Made by a program: the position numbers and the translations under genes
Shown: positions 3,848 through 8,172 of the stretch, in pieces
Layout of the letters: every line of letters begins with the position of its first letter
Numbering within the stretch: position 1 is the stretch's first letter
NCBI GenBank assembly: GCA_017964705.1
Contig: JAGCRL010000270.1
Span: 1 to 8,172 of the forward strand
Length of the DNA: 8,172 bases
Reading direction: 5' to 3'
From: Alphaproteobacteria bacterium
Lineage (GTDB): Bacteria > Pseudomonadota > Alphaproteobacteria > RF32 > CAG-239
The notes under the pieces: model-generated
What the model saw: the letters and a program-made list of their open reading frames with translations, nothing else
Database searches by the model: none
Told to the model about the DNA's origin: nothing

Positions 3848-5530
3848 ATGGCAAATACTGCAGAAGTTAAAATCCCTGAAATGACTGAAAATTTTGAAGA
3901 ATTGTTAAATGAACAATTCGGATCTAAAGGTATTGTTGGAACAGTTATGAAGGGTACCGTCATTCGTATTCATGATGGTTTTGCAACAATTGAGGTTGGT
4001 TTAAAATCAGAAGGTCGAATTCCTTTGCGTGAATTTGGCAGAAATGATGAATTAAAAGTTGGCGATGTTGTTGAAGTTTTAGTTGATAGATATGAAGACA
4101 AAGATGGCAATATCGTATTATCACGTGAAAAAGCTCGCCGTGAAGAAGTATGGCAAGATCTTGAAAAGATGATGAACAATAACGAACGTGTTAACGGCGT
4201 TATCTTTGGTCGCGTTAAAGGTGGCTTCACTGTTGACTTAAACGGTGCTATCGCTTTCTTACCAGGTTCTCAGATAGATATTCGCCCAATCAAAGATATT
4301 TCTCCTTTAATGGGCATTTCACAACCTTTCCAAATTTTGAAAATGGATAAAATTCGCGGCAATATCGTTGTTTCTCGTCGTGTTGTTTTAGAAGAAACTC
4401 GTTCTGCTGCTCGCGCTGAATTAATAGACACAATCAAAGAAGGTGCTATATTAGAAGGTATTGTTAAGAACCTGACCGAATATGGTGCATTTATTGATTT
4501 GGGCGGTGTTGATGGCTTGTTACACGTAACAGATATCTCTTGGAAGAGAATTAATCACCCGGCAGAAGTTCTTTCTCTCGGACAAACTGTTAAAGTACAA
4601 ATTATTAAATTTAATGAAGACACTCAACGCATTAGTTTGGGTATGAAACAATTAGAAAATGACCCATGGCAAGCCGTTGCTGATAAATACAAAGTTGGAG
4701 AAATTTACAAAGGTAAAGTTACCAACATTACCGACTATGGTGCATTTATCGAATTAGAAGATGGTATTGAAGGTTTGGTTCATGTTTCTGAAATGAGCTG
4801 GACACGTAAAAACGTTCACCCAGGCAAAATTGTTTCTACTTCACAAGAAGTTGATGTTAAGGTATTAGAAGTTGATGCAGATAAGCGTCGTATCAGCCTT
4901 GGCATTAAACAATGCACACCAAATCCTTGGGCTGCTTATATTGAAGAACATCCTGTTAATTCTATCATTGAAGGCAAAATTAAAAACATTACCGAATTCG
5001 GTTTGTTTATCGGTCTTTCTGATGAAATTGACGGCATGATTCACTTGTCTGATATTTCTTGGGAAAAATCCGGCGAAGAAGCTGTTAAAGATTATACCAA
5101 AGGTCAGACAATTGAAGCAAAGATTATTGATGTTGATGTTGAAAAAGAACGCATTAGCTTAGGAATTAAGCAAATGTCTGAAAACAACATTGCCTTAACC
5201 TTAGAATCTTTGAAAAAAGGTGATATTGTTAAAGCAGTTGTAACCGGAACAGATGAAAAGGGCGTTCAAGTAACTGTTCAAGGCATTCCTGCAACAATCA
5301 GAAAAGCAGAATTATCTAAAGACAGAAAAGATTTGTCAAGCTACAAAGAAGGTGACATTTTAGAAGCAAAAATCACTTCTGTTGACCGCAAAAACATTAA
5401 AGTTGGTGTTTCTGTAAAAGCTTACGAATTAGAAGAAGAAAAGAAAGCATTAGAAGAATATTCTAATAATCAAGCTGCAGCTGCTTCTTTAGGTGATGCT
5501 TTAGGTGAAGCTTTGAAAAACAAAGAATAA
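3848..5530 (+). CDS. rpsA: 30S ribosomal protein S1
   Basis: S1 binds mRNA on the small ribosomal subunit and helps start translation, especially on messages with weak or no Shine-Dalgarno. The 560 residues contain six S1 (OB-fold) repeats: about 31-97, 113-178, 197-268, 282-355, 369-442 and 456-524, followed by a charged tail of about 35 residues. Repeats 3 to 5 are the most canonical (EYGAFIDLGGVDGLLHVTDI, DYGAFIELEDGIEGLVHVSE, EFGLFIGLSDEIDGMIHLSD). The six-repeat form and length match proteobacterial S1. The ATG is preceded only by an A/T-rich stretch (GAAAAAATAAATATA) with no Shine-Dalgarno, consistent with the unusual initiation regions of rpsA in other proteobacteria, where S1 regulates its own synthesis; autoregulation here is inference. 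The common neighbours cmk and ihfB are absent from the window. Confidence 0.96.
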   Translation: MANTAEVKIPEMTENFEELLNEQFGSKGIVGTVMKGTVIRIHDGFATIEVGLKSEGRIPLREFGRNDELKVGDVVEVLVDRYEDKDGNIVLSREKARREEVWQDLEKMMNNNERVNGVIFGRVKGGFTVDLNGAIAFLPGSQIDIRPIKDISPLMGISQPFQILKMDKIRGNIVVSRRVVLEETRSAARAELIDTIKEGAILEGIVKNLTEYGAFIDLGGVDGLLHVTDISWKRINHPAEVLSLGQTVKVQIIKFNEDTQRISLGMKQLENDPWQAVADKYKVGEIYKGKVTNITDYGAFIELEDGIEGLVHVSEMSWTRKNVHPGKIVSTSQEVDVKVLEVDADKRRISLGIKQCTPNPWAAYIEEHPVNSIIEGKIKNITEFGLFIGLSDEIDGMIHLSDISWEKSGEEAVKDYTKGQTIEAKIIDVDVEKERISLGIKQMSENNIALTLESLKKGDIVKAVVTGTDEKGVQVTVQGIPATIRKAELSKDRKDLSSYKEGDILEAKITSVDRKNIKVGVSVKAYELEEEKKALEEYSNNQAAAASLGDALGEALKNKE

Positions 5531-5595: not shown

Positions 5596-5874
5596 CTATT
5601 GTTCAGTTTGCTCAACAAGCATATCTTCCTCTACCATAGCCGGTTGCGGAGTGTCATTTGGTGCAACCTCCACACCGGGACTTCCGGGTAAAGGCTGCAT
5701 ATTATCACTTGAAGAAGCAAAAGAATTAGCAGATGCAGAATATGTTTCAATAATCATAACACCACCATTTGCCATAGACCCGTTTTGTGAAGAAGCTGCG
5801 TTTTCTGCCACCGCCTGACGAATGACCAAGGCCAAAGCTGCTACGGCTAAAAAACCTAAAAAAAATCTGCTCAT
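5596..5874 (-). CDS. Small exported protein of unknown function
   Basis: This 92-residue protein has a hydrophobic N terminus (about residues 4-18), after which AVA at 21-23 followed by E could be a signal peptidase I site; an uncleaved membrane anchor is also possible because R19 and Q20 interrupt the run. The mature part is low in complexity: Ser/Ala/Asn-rich to about 58, a Pro-rich patch near 61-79, and an acidic tail ending EEDMLVEQTEQ. No family was recognised. The start is well supported by an AGGAGG site 5 bases before the ATG and by a promoter at 5903-5932. It converges on rpsA and shares its terminator. AT content and translation signals match the left part of the window rather than the two genes to its right. 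Other frames over this stretch lack such signals. Confidence 0.7.
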   Translation of the reverse strand: MSRFFLGFLAVAALALVIRQAVAENAASSQNGSMANGGVMIIETYSASANSFASSSDNMQPLPGSPGVEVAPNDTPQPAMVEEDMLVEQTEQ

Positions 5875-5932: not shown

Positions 5933-5962
5933 TAAGCTAAAATTTTTATCTTTAAAACAAAA

Positions 5963-5996
5963 AGAGAGTGGCGAGGATAACCCCTCACCACTCTCT
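5963..5996 (-). terminator. Terminator hairpin of the 341-residue protein gene (cassette 3' flank, copy 1)
   Basis: Read on the minus strand, a 14-bp stem (AGAGAGTGGTGAGG with CCTCGCCACTCTCT) closes a GGTTAT loop and is followed by TTTTGTTTT. The one imperfect pair is U-G in minus-strand RNA but C-A on the plus strand, which fixes the direction of transcription as minus. Its apex matches that of the hairpin at 7292-7334, and both start exactly 5 bases after a TTCTAA motif. Confidence 0.85.
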
Positions 5997-6001
5997 TTTT
6001 C

Positions 6002-6013
6002 TTAGAAGTTAGT
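6002..6013 (-). repeat. Shared 3' tail motif of the cassette genes, copy 1
   Basis: The minus strand reads ACTAACTTCTAA across and just after the stop of the 341-residue gene. The identical 12 bases occur on the plus strand at 7141-7152, and a close variant (ACCAAGTTCTAA) follows the 269-residue gene. Here the gene uses an earlier stop (6009-6011) in a frame one base off the one that would read TNF-stop. Confidence 0.5.
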
Positions 6014-7034
6014 AGTTCTTAATCCGGTCTCGTCCGAGACCGAGTTTTACTACAAGTTTTACATACAGACTGTTACCAGTCTGCATATCGGAATTTTGCA
6101 GCACATATTTCTTGTACTGCCACCCCACCACAAAGCCGATATTGTTGGCTGTGGCAAATGGGCGGTAATCAAGTTCGATCTCGGCGTACGGGGACCAGTA
6201 ATTGCCCCAACTTTTGACATAAGAGCCATCGTCCAGCGGTTTGCTGTCCGTTTTATAGGCTTCACAGACACCTCCGCCCTTGAGGTAAAGTTGCCATACA
6301 TCATACCTATCCAAGCGGAAAGGCTTGATACCGGCTCCCACACGGGCTGTAAAAGCCGTGTAATTCTCGCCAGCATGTTCCGCCAGGTTAGAATACTGAT
6401 TTTTACAGATGCCGGCTGACCCATCGATGAGCCAGCAAGAACCAGAAAGGCTCAAACCTCCACCCGCAACCCAAGCATCGCAGGCTTCCTCCGAGAGGCC
6501 AAATTGGTATCCGCCATAAGCGAATACCGACCACCCGTTTTTATTGGCGGCTTTGCGAATGATCTTACCATCAAAAGCAGACCCTTCCGGGGCTACTTGA
6601 TAGTAGTATACATCCCGATGCTGGTTGTGGTTGGTGATCTCGTAATCAGTACGAGTCTCCACAACCTTAGCTGCATAGTTGGCTTTGCTTGTTGGTTCGT
6701 AGACCTGTACGTGATCTCCTACAACCTTTACTATCTTGAGATAGTTCGGCTGTTGTCTGACACCTTCGGCATCTTTAAACGCCGTGAATCCCTTCAAATA
6801 GAGAGTGTCGCCAACCGCGACATTTACTCCGGCAATCTCTCCTGGGGTGCTGGCGATCAGCATCTGCGGCGGATCAAATACACACCGCACAGTATCCTGC
6901 GGATGAGTTTTCAGGAAGTTGTCACAGAACTGGAAATCTGTGGCATCTCCTACAATTACATTCTGAGCATTCACTCCCACCTGGAGAGTGATTGCAACCA
7001 TCAGGACGATGGTTTTGAAAAGAAATTTTTTCAT
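6009..7034 (-). CDS. Secreted protein with likely C-terminal outer-membrane beta-barrel (cassette 1)
   Basis: The family of this 341-residue protein was not recognised. It begins with a signal peptide (MKKFLFKTIV to VNAQNV, cleavage probably after A23), identical in DNA to that of the gene at 7358-8167. Residues about 27-160 form a soluble-looking domain containing a GVNVAVGDTLYLKGF stretch. Residues about 165-334 show roughly eight alternating, aromatic-rich amphipathic strands (such as GWSVFAYGGYQFGL and NIGFVVGWQYKKYVL), suggesting a small barrel; the last residue is Y. Six cysteines (37, 51, 185, 200, 210, 257) in an exported protein may form disulfides. There is no Shine-Dalgarno before the ATG (AAAACAAAGATT), unlike most genes on the left, and GC content is clearly higher. 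Its last codons contain an 18-base palindrome (6025-6042). Barrel and surface location are inference from pattern. Confidence 0.8.
   Translation of the reverse strand: MKKFLFKTIVLMVAITLQVGVNAQNVIVGDATDFQFCDNFLKTHPQDTVRCVFDPPQMLIASTPGEIAGVNVAVGDTLYLKGFTAFKDAEGVRQQPNYLKIVKVVGDHVQVYEPTSKANYAAKVVETRTDYEITNHNQHRDVYYYQVAPEGSAFDGKIIRKAANKNGWSVFAYGGYQFGLSEEACDAWVAGGGLSLSGSCWLIDGSAGICKNQYSNLAEHAGENYTAFTARVGAGIKPFRLDRYDVWQLYLKGGGVCEAYKTDSKPLDDGSYVKSWGNYWSPYAEIELDYRPFATANNIGFVVGWQYKKYVLQNSDMQTGNSLYVKLVVKLGLGRDRIKNY
6025..6042. repeat. Perfect 8-bp inverted repeat near the 3' end of cassette 1
   Basis: CGGTCTCG and CGAGACCG flank a 2-base centre inside the last codons of the 341-residue gene, 14 bases before its stop. 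It is GC-rich and perfect. It could be chance, a recombination scar or a protein-binding site; nothing similar was found at the end of the neighbouring gene. Confidence 0.5.
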
Positions 7035-7039
7035 AATCT
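6956..7039 (-). repeat. 84-bp direct repeat encoding the shared signal peptide, copy 1
   Basis: This copy is identical base for base to 8089-8172. It covers 5 bases before the ATG, all 26 codons of the signal peptide region and one base of codon 27. The first mismatch is at 6955 versus 8088. The two genes show no obvious similarity beyond it. Homologous exchange between the copies would join the front of one gene to the body of the other. Confidence 0.97.
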
Positions 7040-7064
7040 TTGTTTTTATATGTTAATGATAAAA

Positions 7065-7093
7065 TATATATTTCCACAAAAAACGTATGAAAA
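7065..7093 (-). promoter_or_regulatory. Weak candidate promoter for cassette gene 1
   Basis: On the minus strand TTTTCA (7088-7093), a 17-base spacer and TATATA (7065-7070) form a poor sigma70 pair. The overlapping TATATTTT (7061-7068) is one base off the Bacteroidetes -7 consensus TAnnTTTG, with only a T run where the -33 TTTG would be. Either reading is low confidence, and it overlaps the small plus-strand frame. Confidence 0.25.
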
Positions 7094-7152
7094 AGTTCTT
7101 GAAAAACCATAGACACCTGATAGCCACCCCATACAAACGGACTAACTTCTAA
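7087..7152 (+). CDS. Possible 21-residue peptide or collapsed cassette remnant
   Basis: This plus-strand frame, opposite to its neighbours, starts MKKFLKNHRH and ends PYKRTNF-stop. Its first five residues match the start of both cassette proteins. Its last 12 bases are identical to the 3' tail motif after the 341-residue gene, and 7139-7157 matches the tail after the 269-residue gene in 17 of 19 bases. It has no Shine-Dalgarno and no hairpin follows. It may be a cassette whose body was lost, a leader peptide, or an accidental frame carrying a stray 3' motif. The nucleotide spelling of MKKFL differs from the 84-bp repeat, so the N-terminal match alone is weak; the tail match is the stronger evidence. 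Confidence 0.25.
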   Translation: MKKFLKNHRHLIATPYKRTNF

Positions 7153-7157
7153 TACTT
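7139..7157 (+). repeat. Shared 3' tail motif, inverted third copy
   Basis: GGACTAACTTCTAATACTT on the plus strand matches the minus-strand tail after the 269-residue gene (GGACCAAGTTCTAATACTT, 7335-7353) in 17 of 19 bases, and shares 12 identical bases with the tail at 6002-6013. In frame it reads TNF-stop versus TKF-stop, so the two differences are conservative at codon level. Unlike the other two copies it lacks a hairpin downstream. Confidence 0.55.
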
Positions 7158-7291
7158 CTACAATAATTCATCACATAATCATACTTTTTTGACACATCTA
7201 ATATACCATTTTTATTTTTATTTTTCAAGCACTTTTTTCTATTTTCTGTCTACTTGACTCTGTGTTTCTTAAAATTAGACTTTAAAAACAG

Positions 7292-7334
7292 AGAAGCAGA
7301 GAAGCAAGGGTAACCCCCTCACAACTCTGCTTCT
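7292..7334 (-). terminator. Terminator hairpin of the 269-residue protein gene (cassette 3' flank, copy 2)
   Basis: On the minus strand a 10-bp lower stem (AGAAGCAGAG with CTCTGCTTCT), two U-U mismatches and a 7-bp upper stem (GTGAGGG with CCCTTGC, two G-U pairs) close a GGTTA loop, followed by CTGTTTTTAAAG. The G-U pairs form only in minus-strand RNA. The upper stem and loop match the hairpin at 5963-5996, while the lower stem differs in sequence but still pairs. A GAGAAGCA direct doublet (7291-7306) allows a shifted pairing. Confidence 0.8.
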
Positions 7335-7340
7335 AAGTAT

Positions 7341-7376
7341 TAGAACTTGGTCCCAAACTAGAACTTGGTCTTTATC
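7341..7376 (-). repeat. 18-base tandem duplication across the stop codon of cassette gene 2
   Basis: TAGAACTTGGTC occurs at 7341-7352 and 7359-7370 on the plus strand, 18 bases apart. On the coding strand the gene ends ACC AAG TTC TAG, then reads on in the same frame as TTT GGG ACC AAG TTC TAA. The stop context TKF-stop is therefore present twice in frame, the second copy belonging to the shared 3' flank. Confidence 0.85.
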
Positions 7377-8167
7377 GGGACCTTAATGCCCATCTGAGCA
7401 TACGGCCCGATATTGTGCCAATTCTGATGGTCGTTTTTCAGGTGGCTTACATAGGGTTGGAGGATACCTCCTACCTCTACCACCGCGGCCACCTTGCCGA
7501 GGGAGATGTTGCCCCTGAGGAACAGTTTGCCTGATGCCCCCATGTTCCATGAGCGTACCTCGGCACCCTTAATGTCTGAACGACAATGGGTATAACCCCA
7601 CGCTCCGCCGATGGCGAGTGAGGAACTATTTTTTAAAGCTCCTTGGGCAACTTTCCACATACCTGCCACGTAGGCTGAATATGTGAAATAGTTTTCATCA
7701 GACATCGCCCCTTCGGGATAAGGAGCCATAGATGCGCCACCCTGAACTTCAAAGCCAAAGTGGCAGGTTTCATACCCTATGGCAAGAGTGCCAATAGGAT
7801 TGAACTGGTGCTCCTTATGGAGCCAATCTGCACCAGCTTCGAGAACAACATACAACCCGTGCCTGTAATCGCCCTGGAAATCATGATGCGGGGTAAGATA
7901 CACCTGTGTTTCCCCAGAGAGATACTCCTTTTTGGTCTGTAAGGAAATATCTTTTGTACGCTCTCGCACAAAGACTGTCTGGTCGTTTGTCTCGTACGTA
8001 ATAACGACCGCTCTGTCGTTCTGCTTCTGCACCTTTGACACCTCTGCTGGAGCTTCTGCGGGGGTAACGAACTGAGGCTCAACGCCTCTTACATTCTGAG
8101 CATTCACTCCCACCTGGAGAGTGATTGCAACCATCAGGACGATGGTTTTGAAAAGAAATTTTTTCAT
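7358..8167 (-). CDS. Secreted protein with likely outer-membrane beta-barrel (cassette 2)
   Basis: The family of this 269-residue protein was not recognised. The signal peptide is identical to that of the gene at 6009-7034, with cleavage probably after A23 (VNAQ). Residues about 27-100 are polar and probably periplasmic or surface-exposed (an Ala/Pro/Glu-rich stretch, then NDRAVVITYE). Residues 104-266 show about eight amphipathic strands (for example GLYVVLEAGADWL, IGTLAIGYETCHFGFEVQGG and GPYAQMGIKVPI), ending in the aromatic F269, as is usual for barrels recognised by the BAM machinery. There is no alignable similarity to the neighbouring protein after residue 26, although domain order is alike. 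The gene ends in TAG, 18 bases before a second in-frame TKF-stop. The ATG is 5 bases from the window edge, so its promoter and ribosome binding site are not visible. Location in the outer membrane is inferred. Confidence 0.8.
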   Translation of the reverse strand: MKKFLFKTIVLMVAITLQVGVNAQNVRGVEPQFVTPAEAPAEVSKVQKQNDRAVVITYETNDQTVFVRERTKDISLQTKKEYLSGETQVYLTPHHDFQGDYRHGLYVVLEAGADWLHKEHQFNPIGTLAIGYETCHFGFEVQGGASMAPYPEGAMSDENYFTYSAYVAGMWKVAQGALKNSSSLAIGGAWGYTHCRSDIKGAEVRSWNMGASGKLFLRGNISLGKVAAVVEVGGILQPYVSHLKNDHQNWHNIGPYAQMGIKVPIKTKF

Positions 8168-8172
8168 AATCT
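8089..8172 (-). repeat. 84-bp direct repeat encoding the shared signal peptide, copy 2
   Basis: This copy is identical to 6956-7039 and reaches the last base of the window, so the repeat may extend further upstream of the gene and more cassettes may follow to the right. Confidence 0.97.

Follow-up and report, generated by a model that had tools for sequence, protein, structure and literature searches.

What keeps the upstream regions and first codons of two neighbouring genes for predicted outer-membrane proteins nearly identical, while the mature proteins look unrelated in pairwise comparison? The question is raised by a stretch of 8,172 nucleotides from an Alphaproteobacteria bacterium (assembly GCA_017964705.1, contig JAGCRL010000270.1), hereafter the window, which is the entire contig C173 of G000, a draft genome of 1.23 Mb in 283 contigs that is about 82% complete, and carries two minus-strand genes, here called A and B. 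We propose, with a probability of about 0.77, that a leader of about 330 bp would be kept alike within a genome by gene conversion between A and B, and that the bodies behind it diverge and would have been replaced whole in at least one lineage. The features concerned, in window coordinates, are the following.

6009..7034, minus strand: gene A, 341 amino acids, a predicted outer-membrane protein laid out as signal peptide, variable N-terminal part and predicted C-terminal 8-strand barrel (open reading frame, ORF; homologue P0001, 87%; AlphaFold2 model; PDB matches).
7358..8167, minus strand: gene B, 269 amino acids, a predicted outer-membrane protein and distant paralogue of A (ORF; AlphaFold2 model; PDB matches; A-B profile match).
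6956..7287, minus strand: shared leader of gene A, namely upstream region with predicted promoter, 5′ untranslated region and signal-peptide codons (match to the B copy and to contig C267).
8089..8172, minus strand: shared leader of gene B, truncated by the contig end (identity to 6956-7039).
7200..7228, minus strand: predicted sigma-70-type promoter TTGAAA-17-TATATT in the A leader (scan and conservation of the −10 region).
6963..7034, minus strand: signal-peptide codons of A, 24 codons with the last residues AQ (from sequence), after which cleavage presumably occurs.
8096..8167, minus strand: signal-peptide codons of B, with no difference from those of A (sequence identity).

The first-pass annotation of the window had pointed to 84 identical bases at the two gene starts and to a sudden loss of identity after codon 26, and both observations are borne out: positions 6956-7039 and 8089-8172 agree in 84 of 84 bases, and the exact match, composed of the first 79 coding bases and the 5 bases before them, ends abruptly after codon 26. 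Position 8172 is the physical end of C173, so the second copy is cut there. Bases 1-283 of C267, a contig of the same genome, match 7005-7287 upstream of A at 98.6%; therefore, at least 6956-7287 (332 bp) belong to the shared leader. It runs from the border of the inverted repeat that follows gene B to codon 26, taking in a predicted sigma-70-like promoter, a 5′ region of about 160 bases and the signal peptide. The promoter scan returned 6 sites against 3.4 expected by shuffling, so that conservation, not the scan, is the evidence for the promoter, its −10 region being nearly invariant across 21 aligned leaders of the genus.

Some further properties of the leader may be recorded here. Upstream of the −35 box, several relatives carry a small palindrome, GTCAA-A-TTGAC (alignment A5, columns 54-70), a possible regulator site, of which the window holds a looser form at 7246-7260 (minus strand). 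Within the window, one 3-copy ATTTTT run in the promoter spacer (7208-7225) is a weak candidate for a phase-variation repeat, no short tandem repeat was found in the 5′ coding part, and none of the 5 Rfam matches reached the gathering score. The RNAalifold consensus of the leader is weak (−3.46 kcal/mol), and no RNA element is claimed.

When 90 genomes, G000 included, were searched with 120 bp (the 84 bp plus upstream bases), 18 gave matches; those outside G000 are stretches of 23 to 67 bases, mostly AT-rich, one of which is a true leader at the locus (G012). Thus, no full copy of the 84-bp repeat was found outside G000 in these genomes, but other genomes bear their own version of the same pattern, and it is this pattern that the comparison within the genus brings out. 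The genus set comprises 18 genomes, G000 included, with rpsA detected in 15 and smr in 17, and the stretches read lie beside rpsA in 14 relatives and beside smr in 10. Both A and B were found in 10 of the 18; G002, G004, G005, G007, G009, G010, G013 and G017, with one or neither gene on the stretches read, were left out of the within-genome comparison.

With gene type set by position and sequence, and the leader measured as 240 bases upstream plus the signal-peptide codons, the A and B leaders of one genome are 98.7% identical in G000, 98.1% in G014, 95.8% in G012, 94.9% in G011, 92.1% in G003, 90.6% in G015, 89.3% in G006, 84.1% in G008, 83.7% in G016 and 61.6% in G001. The mean is 88.9%, against between-genome medians of 60.6% for the same type and 60.3% across types (90 pairs each); nine of the ten genomes lie at 83.7-98.7%, and random pairing of A and B leaders reached the observed mean in 0 of 20,000 trials. 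For the signal-peptide codons alone, own-genome identity is 78-100% in seven genomes and 52-63% in G001, G008 and G016. The nearest leader is that of the own-genome partner in 13 of 20 cases, and the nearest body is of the same type in 20 of 20 and that of the own-genome partner in none (0/20). Where the signal-peptide codons are shared, identity drops within about 30 bases past them, and in G006 and G008 a second short identity island follows at bases 120-150 (70 and 83%). Additionally, the leader tree (18 rows, without G012) rejects a single A clade (approximately unbiased test, p-AU 6e-54), and the body tree rejects own-genome pairs in all four cases tested (G000, G011, G014 and G015). By these sequence comparisons leader and body are evolving independently, and the pattern is one of segmental concerted evolution of the A/B leaders, most likely through gene conversion.

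The mature proteins had at first been taken as unrelated. In multiple alignments the A and B bodies indeed share pairwise only 15.7% and 13.6%, but the profiles of the two families, without signal peptides, align over nearly their whole length (probability 98.5, E value 3.8e-15, 8 + 8 sequences; probability 89.4, E value 2e-6, 6 + 6 sequences); G001, whose two proteins are the most divergent rows, was excluded from these body profiles and included in another profile comparison. Therefore, as judged by profile, the bodies of A and B are distant paralogues, and the leader signal stands apart from this kinship. The AlphaFold2 model of A has a mean predicted local distance difference test score (pLDDT) of 54.5, strands at 167-333 and PDB matches to OmpA, NspA and OmpW, and that of B a mean of 60.9, 8 strands at 104-265 and matches to OmpA, Ail and NspA; in both, ten-residue confidence means are 44-87 in the barrel part and lower before it. 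Both bodies are predicted to end in an OmpA-like 8-strand barrel, the signal peptide being judged by eye; they resemble the OmpA/NspA/OmpW-type barrels in this C-terminal fold, but differ from them in an extra N-terminal part of low model confidence.

Pfam gave no family match for the window proteins A and B, and PF13505 matched 3 of 12 B-type and 2 of 11 A-type rows. Among 5.8 billion proteins searched with the window bodies, A found one relative and B one near-identical cluster, whose listed sequence differs at one residue; the relatives used here were obtained through synteny, and a B-type profile then yielded 13 proteins. A scan of named genomes found none with window A and 6 loci with a relative's B; relatives in this named collection are labelled Alphaproteobacteria in 6 of 6 loci, two of them from water deer colon and rectum. 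The B profile matched 14 of 101 genomes of the family, 12 in this genus and two, weakly, elsewhere. With regard to a phage origin, the A protein of a relative had no match in 50,697 phage records.

Single genomes carry signs of exchange between the two genes. At one site of the leader (TGG or CAAG), the variants track A and B in three genomes (G003, G008, G011), change places in G006 and do not differ in G016. In G012, A lies on C11:97848-98897 (a contig of 109 kb; L126:1849-2898), away from rpsA and smr, and B stands at the usual locus (C16:170006; 192 kb); leader and signal-peptide codons of the two agree at 95.4% over 328 bases, their signal peptides are identical, and by hidden Markov model their barrels score 134 bits (A) and 121 bits (B). 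Since tandem duplication alone cannot keep such separate leaders alike, whereas conversion can, the sequence pattern of this one genome would reflect conversion acting across loci that are physically separate, or else a recent move of A. Hybrid genes occur as well. The single gene seen in G017 and in G002 joins an A-type N-terminal part (27 and 38 bits for A versus 0.3 and 9 for B) to a B-type barrel (178 and 183 bits for B versus 3.5 and 6.5 for A), and these hybrids may stem from one shared event. P0011 resembles A of G015 as far as about residue 150 and B from there on, on a contig of 1187 bases that leaves room for assembly error, and P0001 keeps 282 of 317 body residues of window A but only 16 of 24 signal-peptide residues.

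The case for replacement of whole bodies comes from six close species whose rpsA genes are 98-100% identical. Among themselves, G003, G006, G008 and G016 have A bodies at 86-90% and B bodies at 80-89%, and against G011 these values are 46-48% and 44-46%, whereas in the same four G011 pairs rpsA stands at 98-99%, valS at 97-99%, smr at 87-93% and the 240-base upstream leader at 85-94%, and the first 60 bases past each stop are 95-98% identical in the three pairs profiled. Followed along the DNA, G011 and G003 agree at about 80-95% over most of the leader; identity then sinks to about 50% across the body and recovers to 95-97% over the 60 bases that come directly after the stops. G009 has an A body of the G011 kind (92%; 45-48% to the other four), yet its smr is closest to that of G016 (98%). 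At third positions of conserved fourfold codons, the bodies of the G011 pairs are only 33-43% identical, against 64-87% in valS, 60-65% in gene C (a third barrel-like gene, described below) and 50-66% in smr; fast selection on amino acids alone does not explain such low fourfold identity, and import of a diverged body is therefore likelier. Taken from these sequences, whole bodies have probably been replaced in the G011 lineage.

What lies behind the genes differs from what lies before them, and the window offers the following two features.

5956..6003, minus strand: likely terminator downstream of gene A (A-type 3′ flank), formed by an inverted repeat with a T run, absent from the terminator-scan list.
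7285..7341, minus strand: likely terminator downstream of gene B (B-type 3′ flank), formed by an inverted repeat with a T run, absent from the terminator-scan list.

TTCTAA, 5 bases and a hairpin do stand behind both genes in the window, as described at first; in the relatives, however, TTCTAA is not constant, and among close genomes the 3′ flank is conserved per gene type, A-type after A and B-type after B. A 3′ flank common to A and B was accordingly rejected. Directly 3′ of B there is, in addition, a near repeat of the last bases of the gene, GACCAAGTTCTA twice (window 7340-7370, minus strand). The earlier proposal of bodies exchanged between fixed flanks thus survives in part: whole bodies do differ between near-constant upstream and 3′ flanks in close species, but a single pair of fixed flanks fails to explain the A-B start, as the bodies are old type-specific paralogues, the 3′ flanks differ and the leader is homogenised.

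Several points weigh against our proposal and are gathered here. The shared leader is only weak in G001, and in G008 and G016 the likeness is confined to the upstream part, the signal-peptide codons agreeing at 56.9 and 52.0%. Own-genome bodies are slightly more alike than random ones (734 of 20,000 random pairings reach the observed mean), own-genome and between-genome leader identities overlap within G003, G006, G008, G016 and G011, and the leader is under purifying selection as well. Two genes that are A by their position, G014A and G015A, are placed on the B side of the body tree with weak support; one clade of all A bodies is not rejected (p-AU 0.45). As to replacement, the case comes from one lineage, G011, plus G009 for gene A; smr has a fourfold identity of 41% in G008-G016, where no replacement is claimed, and silent sites are near saturation; and the signal-peptide codons vary in the G011 pairs (58-93%), so that the constant 5′ flank between species is the upstream part and not the whole leader. 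RecA was not found in G000 or G014 among the five genomes tested. Finally, all data are draft metagenome bins, one per species, and consist of sequence patterns.

Among other explanations, the one that survives best is a recent whole-gene tandem duplication in each genome, after which one body was replaced by transfer. It would leave nearly identical leaders on genes that stand next to each other in nine of the ten genomes where both were found, and whole-body replacement probably does occur; nevertheless, bodies true to type in 20 of 20 cases and type-specific 3′ flanks mean that the pair predates the species, and G012 has a leader common to genes on different contigs, which makes this explanation improbable. 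Slightly less probable again is selection for common regulation and export alone, keeping leaders alike without recombination. Such selection accords with the near invariance of the promoter −10 and flanking positions in the 21 genus leaders, but predicts equal likeness within and between genomes, where an own-genome average of 89% stands against between-genome medians near 60%; moreover, the signal-peptide codons of G000 and G014 are identical even at silent sites, and the A/B markers are reversed or merged in single genomes.

We consider it very unlikely that the locus serves antigenic variation within the cell, with silent cassettes feeding an expression site in the manner of Borrelia vls or Anaplasma msp2. 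A constant 5′ end with promoter, a variable body and hybrid genes would suit such a system, but both genes are intact and each has its own leader. The leader of G003 has at most two matches per genome in the 12 of 18 genomes where it matched, and in G000 three leader places were found, one of which, the C267 piece, is likely the rest of the leader of B. A silent archive was sought with the B profile, which showed no partial copies beyond intact related ORFs, although the bins are incomplete and could hide cassettes. With regard to a diversity-generating retroelement, none of the 5 genomes tested had a match to the reverse transcriptase family PF00078, the control giving hits in 3 of 14. An assembly artefact, in which a chimera of the metagenome bin would have produced the repeat or the pairing of the two genes, finds some room in draft bins and in a contig that ends inside the repeat, but is hardly credible given that one contig contains both copies, each with its own body, and that other bins, of different accession series, show the pattern too.

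Based on these comparisons, we return to leader conversion between A and B and propose how it might work. First, the leader, namely promoter, 5′ region and usually the signal peptide, would be copied repeatedly from one gene to the other within a genome, presumably by homologous recombination (RecA-type conversion). Second, cells might take up DNA from relatives and thereby acquire foreign bodies, which would recombine by way of the constant flanks. RecA turned up in three of the five genomes tested and a ComEC-type family in all five, and neither proves the route. Third, selection by phage, host or competitors could favour new bodies while one expression and export unit stays. More tentatively, the leader and the type-specific 3′ flank may be the homology arms of a two-gene, archive-free exchange platform in uncultured host-associated alphaproteobacteria, into which bodies would be imported whole from other cells behind a standard promoter and export signal, conversion keeping the leader uniform even at unlinked loci and an imported body being expressed at once.

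The surroundings of the two genes bear on the extent of the locus, which had been read as an open-ended array running off the right edge of the window. Two conserved neighbours stand on its left.

3848..5530, plus strand: rpsA, the conserved left neighbour, which anchors the locus in relatives.
5596..5874, minus strand: a small predicted exported protein, conserved between rpsA and gene A.

The left part of the window as a whole is made up of housekeeping genes, which encode an LptF/LptG permease, a cysteine-synthase-like pyridoxal phosphate enzyme, guanylate kinase, a short-chain dehydrogenase and the S1-domain protein of rpsA type. Where contigs permit, the gene order in relatives is rpsA, the small exported protein, sometimes the barrel gene C, A, B, sometimes valS, and smr. 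C267 runs past its leader piece directly into smr, mltA, tim44 and further genes, and by synteny with the relatives it is the other side of the locus; contigs of several genomes break in or beside the leader, as in the window. Therefore, rather than an array, the window locus is most likely a fixed one of two genes, A and B, between rpsA and smr, with C267 as its right-hand side.

Further observations concern the neighbours. Gene C, of about 202 amino acids, stands beside the small exported protein in several relatives (L047:14774-15382, L042:16564-17178, L051:817-1422), has its own signal peptide, is conserved between species and lies outside the shared-leader pair. The bodies of A and B (window 6009-6962 and 7358-8095) have a G+C content of 45-52%, the upstream leaders 25-32% (9 genomes measured) and the neighbours in G000 30-39%; gene C is likewise G+C-rich, and the high G+C of the bodies is thus no peculiarity of the pair. 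Several relatives have valS between smr and B (L047:9370-12006 and relatives), but smr has no valS next to it on C267 of G000 or in G012; judged from gene order, the presence or absence of valS is an insertion or loss at the same locus. Repeated short elements in intergenic regions near the locus in G001 and G005 (L039, L071) may be small mobile repeats, and G005 has, beside a B-type gene, a gene (L045:1355-2005) whose start we take to be type IV pilin-like.

The A/B pair separates two opposite forces, as copying would keep the promoter and export signal uniform and the exported body would be diversified or replaced. If confirmed, an uncultured lineage could alter its surface without losing expression, in a mirror image of Helicobacter bab, and a leader alike within and unlike between genomes would be a simple marker for seeking similar systems in other genomes, with the caution that signal peptides can cluster by genome instead of by gene. 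In the literature searched, to which this statement is limited, no case of 5′ leader homogenisation in outer-membrane genes was recognised.

Known systems share parts of this arrangement. The Neisseria opa genes are multi-locus outer-membrane antigens diversified by recombination or gene conversion, with alleles that differ between close strains, which the A/B pair resembles; they differ in having more genes, CTCTT coding repeats for phase variation, and semivariable and hypervariable regions (PMC13183285, PMC5020929), whereas A and B are two genes with a wholly variable body, and no such coding repeat was found in the window. The vmp genes of relapsing-fever Borrelia are similar in that constant promoter-near upstream and downstream segments flank exchanged bodies, but there an expression site is fed by archived copies (PMC4534519), and here A and B each have a leader of their own and no archive was seen.

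Of the described cases that we found, the nearest is that of babA/babB and homA/homB in Helicobacter pylori, in which a 3′ segment is alike within a strain and 5′ and middle segments follow gene type (PMC3960876). Like these, A and B would be a paralogous outer-membrane pair in which one segment is concerted by gene conversion and the other follows type, with chimeras; unlike in bab/hom, it is the promoter region, the 5′ region and usually the signal peptide that are homogenised, and the whole mature protein that follows type. Nor is there evidence for on/off switching in A/B, in which they differ from bab/hom. By this analogy, the A/B locus might represent the same kind of segmental concerted evolution with its polarity reversed and the promoter region included.

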